A DNA stretch of 64,000 bases from Sphingopyxis granuli NBRC 100800 (lineage in GTDB: Bacteria > Pseudomonadota > Alphaproteobacteria > Sphingomonadales > Sphingomonadaceae): NCBI RefSeq assembly GCF_001591045.1, contig NZ_BCUA01000014.1, forward strand, positions 1 to 64,000, read 5' to 3'. The number at the start of each line of letters is the position of its first letter. Within the stretch, counting starts at the first letter, position 1. The notes under the pieces are model-generated. The model ran no database searches and was not told the DNA's origin. It was given only the letters and a program-made list of their open reading frames with translations. Of this stretch, positions 17,467 to 49,017 are shown piece after piece. The position numbers were made by a program, and so were the translations under genes.

Positions 17467-17943
17467 CTATCCCAGCAGTTCTTCAATCTCTTTCCTCAAC
17501 TGCTCGGGCTTCGTCGCCGGGGCGTGGCGCGACACCACATTGCCCTCACGGTCCACCAGGAACTTGGTGAAATTCCACTTGATTCCGCTACCGAGCAGGC
17601 CGGTCTTCTCGTCCTTCAGATGCTTGAAGATCGGGTCGGCGCCCGACCCGTTGACGTCGATCTTCGCCATCACCGGAAAGCTCACGTCATAGGTGAGCAA
17701 ACAGAAATTGGCGATTTCGTCGGCGTCGCCCGGCTCCTGCGCGCCGAACTGGTTGCAGGGAAAGGCCAGCACCTCGAACCCGCGATCCTTGTAATCGCGG
17801 TAAAGCGCCTCCAACTCCTTATATTGCGGGGTAAAGCCGCATTTCGACGCGGTGTTGACGATCAGCAGCACCTTGCCGCGATAATCGGCCATCGACTGCT
17901 TCCCGCCGCCCGGCAGCGGCGCCGAAAGATCGTAGAGCGTCAT
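17467..17943 (-). CDS. Cysteine-type glutathione peroxidase
   Basis: Reduces peroxides in the cytosol; 158 residues with no signal peptide. The peroxidatic Cys35 is in NTASKCGFTPQ. Other catalytic-site residues are seen in FPCNQFGAQEPG (Gln65) and KWNFTKFLVD (Trp123, Asn124). Cys81 in NFCLLTYDVSFP aligns with the resolving cysteine of yeast Gpx3, so the enzyme probably uses thioredoxin rather than glutathione. It lies downstream of lolD on the same strand, separated by a family B repeat, so co-transcription is possible but not clear. It converges with the zinc-ribbon gene, with 13 bases between stops. Confidence 0.94.
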   Translation of the reverse strand: MTLYDLSAPLPGGGKQSMADYRGKVLLIVNTASKCGFTPQYKELEALYRDYKDRGFEVLAFPCNQFGAQEPGDADEIANFCLLTYDVSFPVMAKIDVNGSGADPIFKHLKDEKTGLLGSGIKWNFTKFLVDREGNVVSRHAPATKPEQLRKEIEELLG

Positions 17944-17962: not shown

Positions 17963-18092
17963 CCCCTCCCCGTCAGGGGAAGGGTTGGGGCAGGGGCCGG
18001 CGGCCTTACGCTAGGTCGCGGCCCACCCCGCTACGACTAGGCAGCAAGCTGCCAAGTCTCGCTGCCCCTCCCGCAAGCGGAAGGGGAGGTGT
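17963..18092. repeat. Composite palindromic repeat family B, copy 1 (diverged)
   Basis: About 130 bp with a terminal hairpin of the CCCCTCCCGC/GCGGAAGGGG type at the right, a related C-rich/G-rich hairpin at the left, and a central stem at 18035-18058: GACT, GGCAGC, AA, GCTGCC, AGTC. Compared with copies at 20406 and 48265 the central stem has different bases but keeps pairing. It lies between lolD and the peroxidase gene. Confidence 0.8.
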
Positions 18093-18096
18093 CTGC

Positions 18097-18774
18097 CTAC
18101 GCCTCGATATGCCCTTCGTGCAAGCGCAGCACGCGGTCCATCTTCGCCGCCAGCCGCTCGTTGTGCGTCGCGACCAGCGCCGCAGAGCCATGGTCGCGCA
18201 CCAGCCCCACGAACTGCTCGAACACCCGGTCGGCGGTCGCCTCGTCGAGGTTGCCCGTCGGCTCGTCAGCAAGCACCAGCAGCGGCCGGTTCGCCAGCGC
18301 GCGCGCCACGGCGACGCGCTGCTGCTCGCCGCCAGACAGCTTGCTCGGCTTATGATGCAGCCGCTCGGCGAGCCCGAGCCGGGCGAGGAGGTCGGCGGCC
18401 CGGCCCTCCGCTTCGGCCTGGTCGGCGCCGCGGATCAACTGCGGCAGCACGACATTCTCGAGTGCGGTGAAATCGGGCAGCAGATGGTGGAATTGATAGA
18501 CGAAGCCGATCTTCTCGCGCCGCGTCTTTGTCCGCTGCCCCTGATCGAAGCGCGTGACGTCCTCGCCGTCGATGCGGATCGTTCCCTCGAAGCCGCCTTC
18601 GAGCAGGCCCACGGCCTGCAGCATCGTCGACTTGCCCGATCCCGAAGGGCCGAGCAGCGCGACGATCTCGCCGCGGCGCAGGCTGGCGTCGACCCCGCGC
18701 AGCACGTCGATCGTCACCTCGCCTTGCGTGAAGCTGCGCCGCAGGCCGATCAGTTCCAGCGCCAGATCATTCAT
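18097..18774 (-). CDS. lolD: Lipoprotein-releasing ABC transporter ATP-binding protein
   Basis: The ATPase of the Lol system that extracts outer-membrane lipoproteins from the inner membrane. The 225-residue protein has Walker [10 protein letters not shown] (42-50), Q-loop [17 protein letters not shown], signature [15 protein letters not shown] (146-160), and Walker [17 protein letters not shown]. The LDEATAD and short length fit the LolD/MacB-type subfamily. Its start overlaps the end of the permease gene by eight bases, so the two are one transcription unit and the proteins one complex. Confidence 0.94.
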
Positions 18775-20130: not shown

Positions 20131-20405
20131 TAATCTGTTGCCCATCCGCCACAGCGGCAGGCAAAAGCGGCGATCCGGGCGTGCCAGAGGGTGACAAAGC
20201 GTCATCGTCGCCCTAGCCCGATGACTTCTGGTTCAACGCGGCCAAAGGCCCGGCTCCAGGGAGTGCAGATCCTTCGCCGGTCTGCGCACAAGGGGGATGG
20301 CGACGTTCGTCACTGGCGCCCGGGTCTCGATAGAGGCCCGGGCGTTGTGCTTCGGGTCGCGGACAAGCGAAGTCTGGACAGGAATGGAAGCAGGGCAAGC
20401 AGGCA

Positions 20406-20526
20406 TCTCCCCTCCCGCTTGCGGGAGGGGCTGGGGGTGGGTAGCCACGCCGTAACGGCCCACCCCGCTGCGACTAACGAACAAGTTCGCAAGTCTCGCT
20501 GCCCCTCCCGCCTGCGGGAGGGGAGA
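20406..20526. repeat. Composite palindromic repeat family B, copy 2
   Basis: About 120 bp: left hairpin CCCCTCCCGC/GCGGGAGGGG, a G-rich GGGTGGG that can pair with CCCACCC across a short loop, a central stem at 20472-20495 (GACT, CGAAC, AA, GTTCG, AGTC), then a right hairpin CCCCTCCCGC/GCGGGAGGGG. The copy at 48265-48384 is the same element in the opposite orientation. Confidence 0.85.
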
Positions 20527-20551
20527 TAGGTTCCGCTGCCGCGCGCCGCTC

Positions 20552-21238
20552 CTACCCCTCGCTCTCGCTGATATCCTCCAGCATGTCGGGGTCGAGCACG
20601 CGCACGCGGCCCTGCTCAAGCGAAATGATCCCCGATTCCTCCCAGCTTCTCAGCTGGCGGTTGATATGTTCGCGGCTCATCCCCGCGAAATTGCCGAGTT
20701 CGGTCTGCGACAGCTCGAGGCGCTGCGCGGCGTCGCCCGCGTCCTTGCGGATCAGGCGCTTCAGGTAGCGCGCGAGCCGCGGTCCCGAGGCATAGGCACG
20801 GTCGCTTTCGATCGTCTGGTCGGCAGTGCGTAGCCGCCGCGCCAGCTGGTGCATCAGCGACCATGCGAAATCGGGGTGGCTGGTCACGAAATCGCGCATC
20901 GCGTTGCGCCCGAGCTGGAGCGCGCTGCCGGCGCTCGTCGCCGTCACCGACGCGGTCCGTTCGCCGCCGTCGAGCAGCGCGATCTCGCCCAGCACCGCGC
21001 CCGGTTCGGCATAGGCCAGCACGATCTCGCGTCCGTTCGGGGTCAGCATCGATACGCGCGCGCTGCCCTCGGTCAGGATCAGCAGGCTGTCGCCCGCCTC
21101 GCCCTGCGCCAGCAATTCCTTGCCCTTTGCGAAATGCATGTGGACCGCGCGGCCGGCGATGTCGGCCCAATCCTGAAGCGTCAGGCCGGAAAAAATGGAG
21201 TCGGGGCCTTGGAGTTCGGCAAGTTTCGCGTGATCCAT
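20552..21238 (-). CDS. Crp/Fnr-family transcription regulator
   Basis: A 228-residue DNA-binding regulator. The N-terminal cyclic-nucleotide-binding-like beta roll (about 15-120) includes GKELLAQGEAGDSLLILTEGSARV and GAVLGEIALLDGGERTASVTA, close to a phosphate-binding cassette. A dimerisation helix and C-terminal winged helix follow, with LSQTELGNFAGMSREHINRQ as the recognition region. No FNR-type cysteine cluster is present, so it is not an oxygen-sensing FNR; the ligand is unknown. It starts 38 bases after pyrG ends and is probably read with it. The short acidic C terminus DISESEG is unremarkable. Confidence 0.9.
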   Translation of the reverse strand: MDHAKLAELQGPDSIFSGLTLQDWADIAGRAVHMHFAKGKELLAQGEAGDSLLILTEGSARVSMLTPNGREIVLAYAEPGAVLGEIALLDGGERTASVTATSAGSALQLGRNAMRDFVTSHPDFAWSLMHQLARRLRTADQTIESDRAYASGPRLARYLKRLIRKDAGDAAQRLELSQTELGNFAGMSREHINRQLRSWEESGIISLEQGRVRVLDPDMLEDISESEG

Positions 21239-46858: not shown

Positions 46859-48211
46859 ATGGCGACCCACGACATTCACATCATCGGCGGCGGTCTCGCG
46901 GGCTCCGAAGCCGCCTGGCAACTCGCCGAGGCGGGGTTCCGCGTCCGCCTGTCCGAAATGCGCGGGGGCGGCGACACGACACCCGCGCATCAAGGCGACG
47001 CACTCGCCGAGATGGTCTGTTCGAACAGTTTCCGCAGCGACGACGGCGACAGCAACGCCGTCGGCCTGCTGCACCGCGAGATGCGCGCTCTCGGCTCACT
47101 CATCATGCGCGAGGCCGACGCGACGAAAGTTCCCGCGGGCTCGGCGCTCGCGGTCGACCGCGACCTGTTTTCGGGCGGCGTCACCCGCGCGCTCGCCGAA
47201 CATCCCAACATAACCGTCGTGCGCGAACGCATCGACGCGCTGCCCGCCGAGGGCCTGACGATCGTCGCCACCGGCCCGCTCACCGCCGCGGGTCTCGCAG
47301 AAAGCATCGGGGCCGCGACCGGCAGGGATTCGCTCGCCTTCTTCGACGCGATCGCGCCGATCGTCTATCGCGACAGCGTCGACATGGATGTCGCGTGGAT
47401 GGCGAGCCGCTGGGACAAGGTCGGGCCGATCGGCGACGGCAAGGACTATATCAACTGCCCGATGGACCGGGACCAATATTACGCCTTCGTCCAGGGTCTG
47501 ATCGACGGCGAAAAGACCGAGTTCAAGGATTGGGAGACCGACACCCCCTATTTCGAAGGCTGCATGCCGATCGAGGTGATGGCGGAACGCGGCCCCGACA
47601 CGCTGCGCTTCGGCCCGATGAAGGGGGTCGGGCTCGACAATCCGCGCACCGGGCGCTGGCCCTATGCGGTCGTCCAGCTTCGCCAGGACAATGCGCTCGG
47701 CACGCTGTGGAACATGGTCGGCTTTCAGACCAAGCTCAAGCATGGCGCGCAGGTCGAACTGTTCCGTACCATCCCCGGGCTCGAAAAGGCCGAGTTCGCG
47801 CGGCTCGGCGGCCTGCACCGCAACAGCTTCATCCGCTCGCCCGAACTGCTCGACCCGCAGCTTCGCCTCAAGTCGGCGCCGCATATCCGGTTCGCGGGAC
47901 AGATTACCGGTTGCGAAGGCTATGTCGAAAGCGCAGCGATCGGCCTGATCGCCGCACGTTTCGCCGCTGCCGAACTGGCGTGCCGCCACCTGCCCCCACC
48001 GCCGCCCGAAACCGCGCTCGGCGCGCTGCTCAGCCATATCACCGGCGGCGCAGACGCCGCGAGCTATCAGCCGATGAACGTCAATTTCGGTCTCTTCCCG
48101 CCGCTCGCCGACGAAGTGCGCAAAAAGGACCGCAAACTCGGCTATACGCAGCGCGCGGGGCAGGCCCTGGCAGGATGGATGAAGCTGGCAGACGGCGTGG
48201 TCGTCGCCTAG
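46859..48211 (+). CDS. trmFO: Methylenetetrahydrofolate-tRNA-(uracil-5-)-methyltransferase
   Basis: Folate- and FAD-dependent enzyme making 5-methyluridine at position 54 of tRNA. It has 450 residues. FAD dinucleotide fold [14 protein letters not shown] at the N terminus, catalytic-type Cys54 in MVCSNSF, a second conserved cysteine in [14 protein letters not shown], and the C-terminal [13 protein letters not shown] with NFGLFPPL. It is the TrmFO type rather than SAM-dependent TrmA. The ribosome site is weak (GGATAG). Its 3' end is followed by repeats B and D before a convergent gene. Confidence 0.96.
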
Positions 48212-48264
48212 GGATCGTTGCGGCGGTTTCGGGGTGGGAAGCGGTCGTTAGACATGCCCTGGTT

Positions 48265-48384
48265 TCCCCTCCCGCAGGCGGGAGGGGCAGCGAGACTTAC
48301 GAACTTGTTCGTTAGTCGCAGCGGGGTGGGCCTTTGCACCGTCGCTGCCCACCCCCAACCCCTCCCGCCTGCGGGAGGGGAGAT
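48265..48384. repeat. Composite palindromic repeat family B, copy 3 (inverted)
   Basis: The same element as 20406-20526 in opposite orientation: outer hairpins CCCCTCCCGC/GCGGGAGGGG, the central stem 48294-48317 (GACT, TACGAAC, TT, GTTCGTT, AGTC), and the GGGGTGGGC...GCCCACCCC arm pair in between. Confidence 0.87.
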
Positions 48385-48424
48385 GGACGGCAGCTTCCGG
48401 TCGAAAACAGACATCTCCTATCTT

Positions 48425-48500
48425 CGTCACCCCGGACTTGATCCGGGGTCCATTCGCGCAGCGCTGAGAGAATGGATTCCGGATCAAGTCCGGAATGACG
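48425..48500. repeat. Palindromic intergenic element, CGTCA-ended family (copy D)
   Basis: An inverted repeat with outer ends CGTCA (48425-48429) and TGACG (48496-48500). The inner arms CCGGACTTGATCCGG and CCGGATCAAGTCCGG are themselves palindromic, and TCCATTC pairs with GAATGGA. A short loop lies near the centre. Same terminal bases as the 11301-11384 element. Confidence 0.82.
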
Positions 48501-48555
48501 ATCCTGCTGGCGTCGCTTATCGGTCGAAACCAGACACTCAATCTCATCGCGCCGC

Positions 48556-49017
48556 TCAGCAACTGCATTTGGGCTTGGCCGCCGGCTTCGGCGCCGTCGT
48601 AGCGAACTCGGCGCGGGTCAGGTCGCCCGACTTGTCGGCATCGGCCTTGGAGAAACGGTCGCTCGTCGCCGCCGCCCATTCCTCGAAGGTCAGCAGATTA
48701 TCGCCATTCTTGTCGAGCTTGCGGAAAGCGGCGGTGCGCGTCGCCATCATCTCGATCCGACTGATCCGTTCGTTGCGGTCGCGATCGTAGCGATTGAAGC
48801 GCCGCTCCTCGCGCGACTCCGCCTTCGCGGCGGGCAATGCCGGCGGCGCCGGGCCGCGCTTCGGTGCTCCCGCGCCCGCAACGGGAATGGCCGGCAAGGT
48901 CGGCGGGGGCGCCGGCAGCACCTCTTCCTCGGCGATCTGGCTATACCCCTTCCACACGAACAATCCGCCGGTCAGCAGCAGCGCGCTCGCCACGCCGCCG
49001 ATCAGAAATCTGGACAT
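48556..49017 (-). CDS. Exported EF-hand calcium-binding protein
   Basis: A 153-residue protein with an N-terminal membrane/signal segment FLIGGVASALLLTGGLFV, then a Pro/Ala-rich linker (residues 35-65), and three EF-hand loops: DRDRNERISRIE, DKNGDNLLTFEE, and DADKSGDLTRAE. The second and third have good calcium-ligand spacing. The first is weaker. It ends in CSC, possibly a disulfide or metal site. Start ATG 49017 has GGAGG eight bases upstream; ATG 49023 is also possible. Anchored in the inner membrane facing the periplasm is most likely. Confidence 0.85.
   Translation of the reverse strand: MSRFLIGGVASALLLTGGLFVWKGYSQIAEEEVLPAPPPTLPAIPVAGAGAPKRGPAPPALPAAKAESREERRFNRYDRDRNERISRIEMMATRTAAFRKLDKNGDNLLTFEEWAAATSDRFSKADADKSGDLTRAEFATTAPKPAAKPKCSC

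Follow-up and report, generated by a model that had tools for sequence, protein, structure and literature searches.

A dispersed repeat family of Sphingopyxis and its kin keeps a central hairpin whatever its letters, apparently as loop closure in a predicted three-stranded DNA fold

The repeats most similar to those considered here are the BoxC, PIT and TM_ECO motifs, which, according to passages of PMC4666352, consist of a C-rich strand, a first loop, a purine strand, a second loop (loop 2) and a third strand following the class II rule, and which are intergenic and form inverted pairs with two kinds of loop 2 (TTA and CCG in E. coli TM_ECO). The same passages give the TM_ECO consensus as CCCTCNCCC-N3-6-GGGNGAGGG-N3-GGGNGAGGG, limit loop 2 to 1-6 nt in the definition used by the published triplex finder ITxF, and state that purine-motif triplexes do not form in RNA. 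They also report that triplex folding of BoxC/PIT motifs was shown in vitro and that in-vivo footprinting gave cleavage like that of the control, and whether such motifs fold into triplexes inside bacteria is the question on which the present family bears. Other dispersed intergenic palindromes include the CGTC- and GTAG-tagged REPs and their dimers, some of which lie inside other palindromic repeats (parts of PMC3733652), and the alphaproteobacterial CIR repeats of Caulobacter, which are roughly 110 bp long with two arms and a linker (parts of PMC2229807).

In the window, i.e. the whole stretch of 64,000 nucleotides analysed here, an earlier note made from the letters alone had described three copies of a composite element with outer C-rich/G-rich hairpins and a central stem (18035-18058 in copy 1); the segments matching this stem are 20472-20495 on the plus strand and 48294-48317 on the minus strand. 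These copies are real and their letters are as described. Their parts are given below, where the names of neighbouring genes are a reading of ORF translations.

17963-18092, plus strand: copy 1, composite element, between the glutathione-peroxidase-like gene (17467-17943, minus strand) and the stop codon of the LolD-like gene (18097-18774, minus strand)
17963-17984, plus strand: copy 1, L hairpin
17987-17996: copy 1, L-end third strand GGGGCAGGGG, mirror fit incomplete
18022-18029, minus strand: copy 1, third strand GGGGTGGG
18022-18072: match of covariance model R1 (arm and flanks) at copy 1
18035-18058, minus strand: copy 1, central arm (the stem of the earlier note), read as hairpin loop 2 of the predicted R-end triplex; the segment GACTAGGCAGCAAGCTGCCAAGTC coincides exactly with the arm
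18065-18086, minus strand: copy 1, R hairpin with one G.T pair and purine strand GGGAGGGG (minus-strand reading)
20406-20526, plus strand: copy 2, composite element, 3' of the CRP/FNR-like regulator gene (20552-21238, minus strand)
20409-20430, plus strand: copy 2, L hairpin, then a 3-nt loop 2 (CTG) and third strand GGGGTGGG at 20434-20441
20411-20441: copy 2, L-end match of the short-loop pattern
20459-20466, minus strand: copy 2, R-end third strand GGGGTGGG, the exact purine-strand mirror with A to T
20472-20495, minus strand: copy 2, central arm, one A.C mismatch (plus-strand reading)
20502-20523, minus strand: copy 2, R hairpin, purine strand GGGAGGGG
48265-48384, minus strand (inverted): copy 3, composite element, 3' of the TrmFO-like gene (46859-48211, plus strand)
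48266-48287, plus strand: copy 3, R hairpin, purine strand GGGAGGGG
48294-48317, plus strand (predicted folding strand): copy 3, central arm, all pairs intact except for the conserved A.A mismatch (here T.T)
48323-48330, plus strand: copy 3, R-end third strand GGGGTGGG
48348-48378: copy 3, L-end match of the short-loop pattern
48359-48380, minus strand: copy 3, L hairpin, with its third strand at 48348-48355 (minus strand) after a 3-nt loop 2 (TTG)

Arm 1 of the element consists of GGGGTGGG with CCCACCCC, and in the central arm GACT is followed by a conserved A.A mismatch and five pairs, with CAAG as the loop before the return strand. DNA energy folding of the element gives separate hairpins, triplexes being outside what such folding scores. 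Open reading frames of more than 100 aa cross the repeats at 20191-20529, 20233-20619 and 48218-48790 (with peptides of the PSRLREG and PLPQAGG types) and are likely spurious genes.

The element belongs to a dispersed family which, among the genomes searched, is confined to one bacterial family (Sphingopyxis and its kin). In the 4.26-Mb source assembly (181 contigs) copy 2 matches 64 places at E<=0.001, lone outer hairpins included, and a blastn search with this copy detected the element in 24 of 41 genomes, viz. 24 of the 25 from the same genus (its own included) and none of 16 from other genera of the order. The covariance model R1 had matches in at least 39 of 196 genomes of the order and at least 2 of 142 drawn from the class, all of them in the window's own family; these counts are lower bounds due to the strict filters of the large covariance-model runs. 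The named contigs among the matches listed are mostly from Sphingopyxis, together with Novosphingobium, Sphingobium, Erythrobacter, Altererythrobacter and Citromicrobium; MAGs whose names stop at higher ranks are also among them. No element match was seen in phages, while three plasmid records matched, and among the matches listed from the open-licence literature no paper described this repeat family. Counts of sequences should not be read as counts of events: there is one genome per species, but the copies within and between genomes are related.

On the strand opposite to that read in the earlier note, a C-rich strand, a short loop, a purine strand, the central arm and a G-rich third segment follow one another, and in the commonest form the purine strand is GGGAGGGG and the third strand is GGGGTGGG, its mirror with T for A. 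Judged by this layout, the element is probably, though far from certainly, a dispersed inverted pair (about 120 bp) of intrastrand triplex motifs that follow the purine-motif (class II) rule, as in BoxC/PIT/TM_ECO, with the loop of the R end closed by the arm. The L end (on the earlier note's strand), where only 2-3 nt separate a C-rich/G-rich hairpin from the G-rich third strand behind it, would be an ordinary short-loop triplex motif. The R end (on the opposite strand) would contain the same parts, but with a loop of some 35 nt or more that folds into the central stem, this stem bringing the third strand back into the outer hairpin's groove. If the stem merely closes the long second loop, then any folding sequence would serve, and a role of this kind would explain the compensatory changes, variable lengths and arm swaps described below without calling for a particular sequence or for RNA.

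Similar to E. coli TM_ECO (as given in passages of PMC4666352), the sphingomonad element shows both TTA and CCG loop-2 types, and in a hand count of adjacent inverted pairs (<=130 bp) among the matches listed, 14 of 22 had exactly one TTA loop and none had two. However, the TM_ECO consensus is not matched: that of the element is CCCCTCCC / GGGAGGGG / GGGGTGGG, with CCCCTCCC in the stem versus CCCTCNCCC in TM_ECO, and the third strand, unlike that of TM_ECO, has mostly T opposite A. The element also differs in that one loop 2 is long, folded and exchangeable, and in its strong 3' bias, whereas the E. coli motif, by the account in those passages, is more often upstream of genes with no distance trend. 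A loop 2 of 1-6 nt is found at the L end but not at the R end, which holds the whole arm, and this R-end loop, far beyond the range given in PMC4666352, is a point against the triplex reading. Based on its different consensus and long folding loop, the element would work like BoxC/PIT/TM_ECO but is not a member of TM_ECO; the plan is known from these motifs, and the long folded loop 2 and the consensus are where it varies from them. From the tagged REPs, as described in parts of PMC3733652, it is distinguished by its four hairpins, its third strand, the absence of a CGTC or GTAG arm tag and of a detected RAYT, although CGTC-type dimers occupy the same gene-end slots in some sister genomes. The CIR repeats are set apart by their description in parts of PMC2229807, as they carry GANTC sites in the loop, unlike the element.

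The earlier note had reported five shared inner pairs in the central stem, three of them changed on both sides between copies. The three double changes (G-C/C-G, C-G/G-C and G-C/A-T) are confirmed, but the fifth of these pairs is the C-G of the conserved CAAG loop; beside the A.A mismatch, copy 1 has a G-C and copy 3 an A-T pair, whereas this pair is broken in copy 2 by an A.C mismatch that the note does not mention, and the three window copies alone are weak evidence for covariation. However, the conclusion that pairing rather than sequence is kept is well supported by stem covariation in the wider family. Using anchors placed outside the stem to avoid bias, at least 119 sites with at least 72 distinct segments were collected. 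For the 38 distinct 24-nt segments among the sites listed, 94.7% of the cells were paired (78.1% after shuffling), 51 cells were double-changed (13.1) and the covariation score was 0.452 (0.163), none of 500 shuffles being as high in any of these measures; the covariation for which the note had suggested a test holds at this scale. Seven of the nine pairs were changed on both sides (4.8 in shuffled segments, 11/500 as high), further pair types numbered 12 versus 11.0 (145/500, not significant), and slid structures were paired in 10.8-42.4% only. A wider set, inclusive of more genomes and of loci fetched by blastn with copy 2, yielded 289 non-redundant instances and 144 distinct segments. After two of its 82 distinct 24-nt stems were dropped for having fewer than six Watson-Crick pairs, the 720 cells of the other 80 comprised 568 consensus, 112 double-changed and paired, 5 G-T and 35 broken cells, and hence the breaks are not as frequent as the kept double changes, contrary to what the note held would speak against it; in all 82 stems, 688 of 738 cells were Watson-Crick, 9 G-T and 41 neither. 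Further, when each of the 144 distinct segments of all lengths was compared with shuffles of itself, 129 (p<=0.05) or 106 (p<=0.01) folded better, versus 9 and 5, respectively, of 120 control segments.

The arm itself is 16-39 nt long and varies in stem letters and loop, with the A.A mismatch kept in 126 and the CAAG loop in 120 of 132. Four segments carry an unrelated palindrome as arm (the same one in L049 and L063, from one MAG, and two in genome G065), and these replacements resemble the palindromes of CGTC-type REPs. Among 261 full copies, 8 distinct ones have two inverted arms, the stems of which differ in all five cases where both could be read. The central hairpin is kept whatever its letters, apparently as closure of the loop of the predicted three-stranded DNA fold.

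The relation of the third strand to the purine strand was followed in 335 cores with flanks, 301 of which had a usable purine tract; in the counts given here, a pair is scored where the third strand starts with the mirror of the tract. The third segment is the purine-strand mirror with T or A for A, and it tracks changes in the purine strand. The pair GGGAGGGG/GGGGTGGG was in mirror in 166 of 173 cases, the double change AGAGGAGGGG/GGGGTGGTG in 26 of 28 (23 of these 28 being from one genome, G065), AGGGGAGGG/GGGTGGGG in 6 of 9, GGGGGAGG/GGTGGGGG in 7 of 8, and both GGGAGGGA/AGGGTGGG and AGGGGAGGGA/AGGGAGGGG in 2 of 2. In one common type the full mirror often fails: AGGGGAGGGG has GGGGTGGGG in only 9 of 25 cases (in the other 16 the third strand is one or two G short), GGGGAGGGG has its mirror in 2 of 5, and 18 of 268 elements score below 0.7. 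The control was the direct order, which is able to pair with the C-rich strand by Watson-Crick rules, and it loses clearly. For asymmetric tracts at the R end, mirror order was better than direct in 253 of 266 elements (11 ties, 2 losses) and in 28 of 35 distinct pairs (5 ties, 2 losses); at the L end the corresponding values were 174 of 239 (41 ties, 24 losses) and 38 of 69 (25 ties, 6 losses). At neither end did any of 3000 permutations reach the observed mean, but as the tract types are few (about eight) and inherited, these tests overstate independence.

A scan of all collected loci gave, for 8-nt hairpin windows in the family frame with long loop, 374 exact mirror and 57 direct matches of 457. 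Outside the arm frame (family L ends included) this control is mixed: short-loop matches were 383 mirror versus 158 direct of 1504 at 8 nt and 66 versus 46 of 468 at 9 nt, and the order was reversed at 10 nt (27 versus 42 of 264); with long loop, the mirror and direct counts outside the frame were 54 and 37 of 1504, 17 and 1 of 468, and 6 and 1 of 264 for 8, 9 and 10 nt, respectively. Every one of the 30 genus genomes contains the short-loop motif (loop 2 of 2-5 nt allowed), frequently as inverted pairs without an arm, and none the backwards pattern. A C-rich strand, a G-rich strand and a third strand mirroring the purines are all present, with exceptions. A third strand that follows purine-strand changes in mirror order is what the rule for purine-motif intrastrand DNA triplexes prescribes. 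The earlier note had left open whether the element acts as structured DNA or RNA; structure is borne out by the stem, and as the mirror covariation fits a type of triplex stated, in passages of PMC4666352, not to form in RNA, it points to DNA. From these comparisons we infer that the triplex would form in cells. A stronger proposal, which we put forward only tentatively, is that of a sphingomonad class of triplexes in which a long loop 2 is closed by an interchangeable hairpin, the triplex pairing is selected and the strands co-evolve by the reverse-Hoogsteen mirror rule. If true, this would be comparative-sequence evidence for BoxC-type triplexes forming and mattering in living bacteria, and natural sequence variation may then reveal selection for three-stranded DNA folds, a third strand that follows the mirror and a swappable stem together being paired natural mutants with built-in predictions.

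The L and R hairpins, which form terminal inverted repeats as in MITEs, share one subtype in 226 of the 227 copies whose two ends could both be typed as GC or CT; in the remaining 34 of 261, an end was left untyped. On the earlier note's strand, the R hairpin and the arm had A.C to G.T ratios of 46:16 and 34:6 among non-Watson-Crick pairs, and the L hairpin one close to even (20:27), the contrast between R and L being significant (Fisher p 0.0014; 0.023 on distinct hairpins). An excess of A.C in the R hairpin and arm corresponds to G.T wobble on the opposite strand, and it fits a fold on that strand; these results are suggestive of the two ends folding on opposite strands. However, the asymmetry may be partly mutational, as at unpaired positions G>A was seen in 12/1360 versus C>T in 7/3082. 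As regards a long L:R stem versus separate hairpins, on the 5' side of the L end changes pairing only within the hairpin numbered 19 versus 5 pairing only across L and R, and the L and R loop dinucleotides match in 61 of 165 cases versus 35.1 expected; inheritance can explain both this bias and the loop matching.

With genes called by our own script, the 260 copies with both neighbours called lay in 86 convergent, 157 tandem and 17 divergent gaps, as compared with 99, 444 and 247 among 790 gaps (20-1500 bp) free of the element in the loci collected. The copies avoid divergent pairs and adjoin stop codons, the median distance from the R end to the right-hand gene being 12 nt for the 88 copies in (-,-) tandem pairs, and survival of the element would be mainly just after stop codons. 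This strong 3' location and the nearness of the R end to the gene, together with the observation that in 96 of 157 tandem pairs the R-end strand predicted to fold is also the one transcribed (p 0.006), are in accordance with an RNA element in 3' untranslated RNA (an mRNA stabiliser, exonuclease block or attenuator) whose stems are kept at the RNA level. We nevertheless regard such an element as unlikely, since the third-strand mirror covariation is not an RNA pairing rule, the element is not conserved at its sites, and Rfam contains no family matching it at gathering score (a further Rfam search gave six chance-level sub-threshold matches, the best to a microRNA model and far below its gathering score). 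Further, the direction of the wobble asymmetry is the same in either gene orientation (A.C:G.T of 15:2 in (-,-) and 11:5 in (+,+) for the R hairpin, 10:0 and 8:4 for the arm), though the contrast between orientations is not significant (p 0.22 and 0.096, respectively). Runs of four or more T behind the hairpins are also few (16 of 287 and 5 of 263 flanks), and an intrinsic terminator is rejected on this ground.

The earlier note took the pairing to be selected, a step beyond the covariation itself, as hairpin-templated mutation could also keep palindromes perfect. Upkeep by template switching within the hairpin or by whole-arm recombination would be in keeping with the many double changes that are G-C/C-G flips with few intermediates (pair 6-17 is C-G in 58, G-C in 19 and unpaired in 3 of the 80 distinct stems), with the swapping of arms for other palindromes and with the copying evident from eight near-identical copies in G002. 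However, the mirrored third strand is neither predicted by mutation of this kind nor something it would produce, and template switching would tend to erase the conserved A.A mismatch and CAAG loop; we consider this explanation improbable.

Less probable still is a G-quadruplex built from the G runs of the purine and third strands, whose middle loop would be the arm. The four G runs needed, each at least three long, are indeed available (GGG-A-GGGG ... GGGG-T-GGG), and competition from quadruplexes is noted in a passage of PMC4666352 for the motif of that study, but AGAGGAGGGG/GGGGTGGTG and GGGGGAGG/GGTGGGGG break the three-G runs while keeping the mirror, and a quadruplex has no need for the C-rich strand to pair. 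Lastly, a REP/BIME-type element whose central hairpin is recognised as single-stranded DNA by a RAYT (Y1) transposase, a linkage that the earlier note suggested checking and in line with the palindromic, dispersed and heterodimer-like (two-arm) forms and with the preserved complementarity described for REPs in part of PMC2817692, is rejected as very improbable and largely refuted, as the arm (segments and flanks examined) has no GTAG or CGTC tag at the hairpin foot, any Y1 match is found in only 11 of 60 genus genomes, the single match in the source assembly (L173, contig C1; 147 aa, IS200-like by size) shows no repeat core within the surrounding 3.4 kb, the three genomes with more than 40 pattern matches have no Y1 (G067, G071) or one frame with an internal stop (G065), and at none of 12 Y1 loci is there a core or an element-flanked Y1 gene.

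Returning to the inverted triplex-motif reading, the element would spread and turn over as a non-autonomous repeat, or be copied inside larger ones. MITEs are short, non-coding, intergenic repeats with inverted ends. The element shares these features with them and is apparently mobile, but differs in that no convincing target-site duplication was found in 208 copies (320 offset/length tests; the best recurrent excess was 11 versus 4.6 expected, at 3 nt). The search for a mobilising enzyme, which covered Y1 transposases, found none, and we know of no parent transposon from this search.

Presence/absence turnover is seen at all three window sites, compared by eye over 170-330 nt past the genes. 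After the LolD-like gene, the element occurs in the window's genome only of 30, with other repeats in G009, G014 and G018 and short spacers or overlapping frames in the rest, some before a different gene. After TrmFO (29 genomes), it occurs in the window's genome, while G011 and G021 carry a sister element with the same arm frame and other outer hairpins, and the remaining genomes have CGTC-type or unrelated palindromes or nothing. After the CRP-like gene (28 genomes), copy 2 is the only copy of its form within 170 nt past the stop, and G011 and G045 have a sister element in opposite orientation, which points to separate arrivals in one slot. Besides the almost identical copies at eight loci, G002 has another at three, and a further shared palindromic module flanks these copies. 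Of the 261 copies, this module flanks 20 on both sides and 30 on one side. As its right half flanks other repeats too, the element is to be viewed as part of a mosaic whose inside is exchangeable.

Some minor observations concern these surroundings. The flanking module reads GACCGGAAGC... / ...CCGCTTCCCACCCCAAAGC (L003, L004 and L363-L373), and its right half also flanks CGTC-type dimers. Beside copy 3, at 48425-48500, lies an inverted pair of CGTC-type REP palindromes (CGTCACCCCGGACTTGATCCGGGG ... CCGGATCAAGTCCGGAATGACG) of the known alphaproteobacterial kind. A GCCCGGG inverted repeat with flanks, at about 20240-20350 between the CRP-like and LolC-like genes, has no Rfam match at gathering score and is a possible small RNA or leader; this stretch recurs, by eye, downstream of the CRP-like gene in many of 28 genus genomes. 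The armed-triplex plan may be wider than this repeat family. After the TrmFO-like gene of G001 (L216), an unrelated GC-rich repeat resembles, by eye, a hairpin, a small hairpin arm and a G-rich strand.
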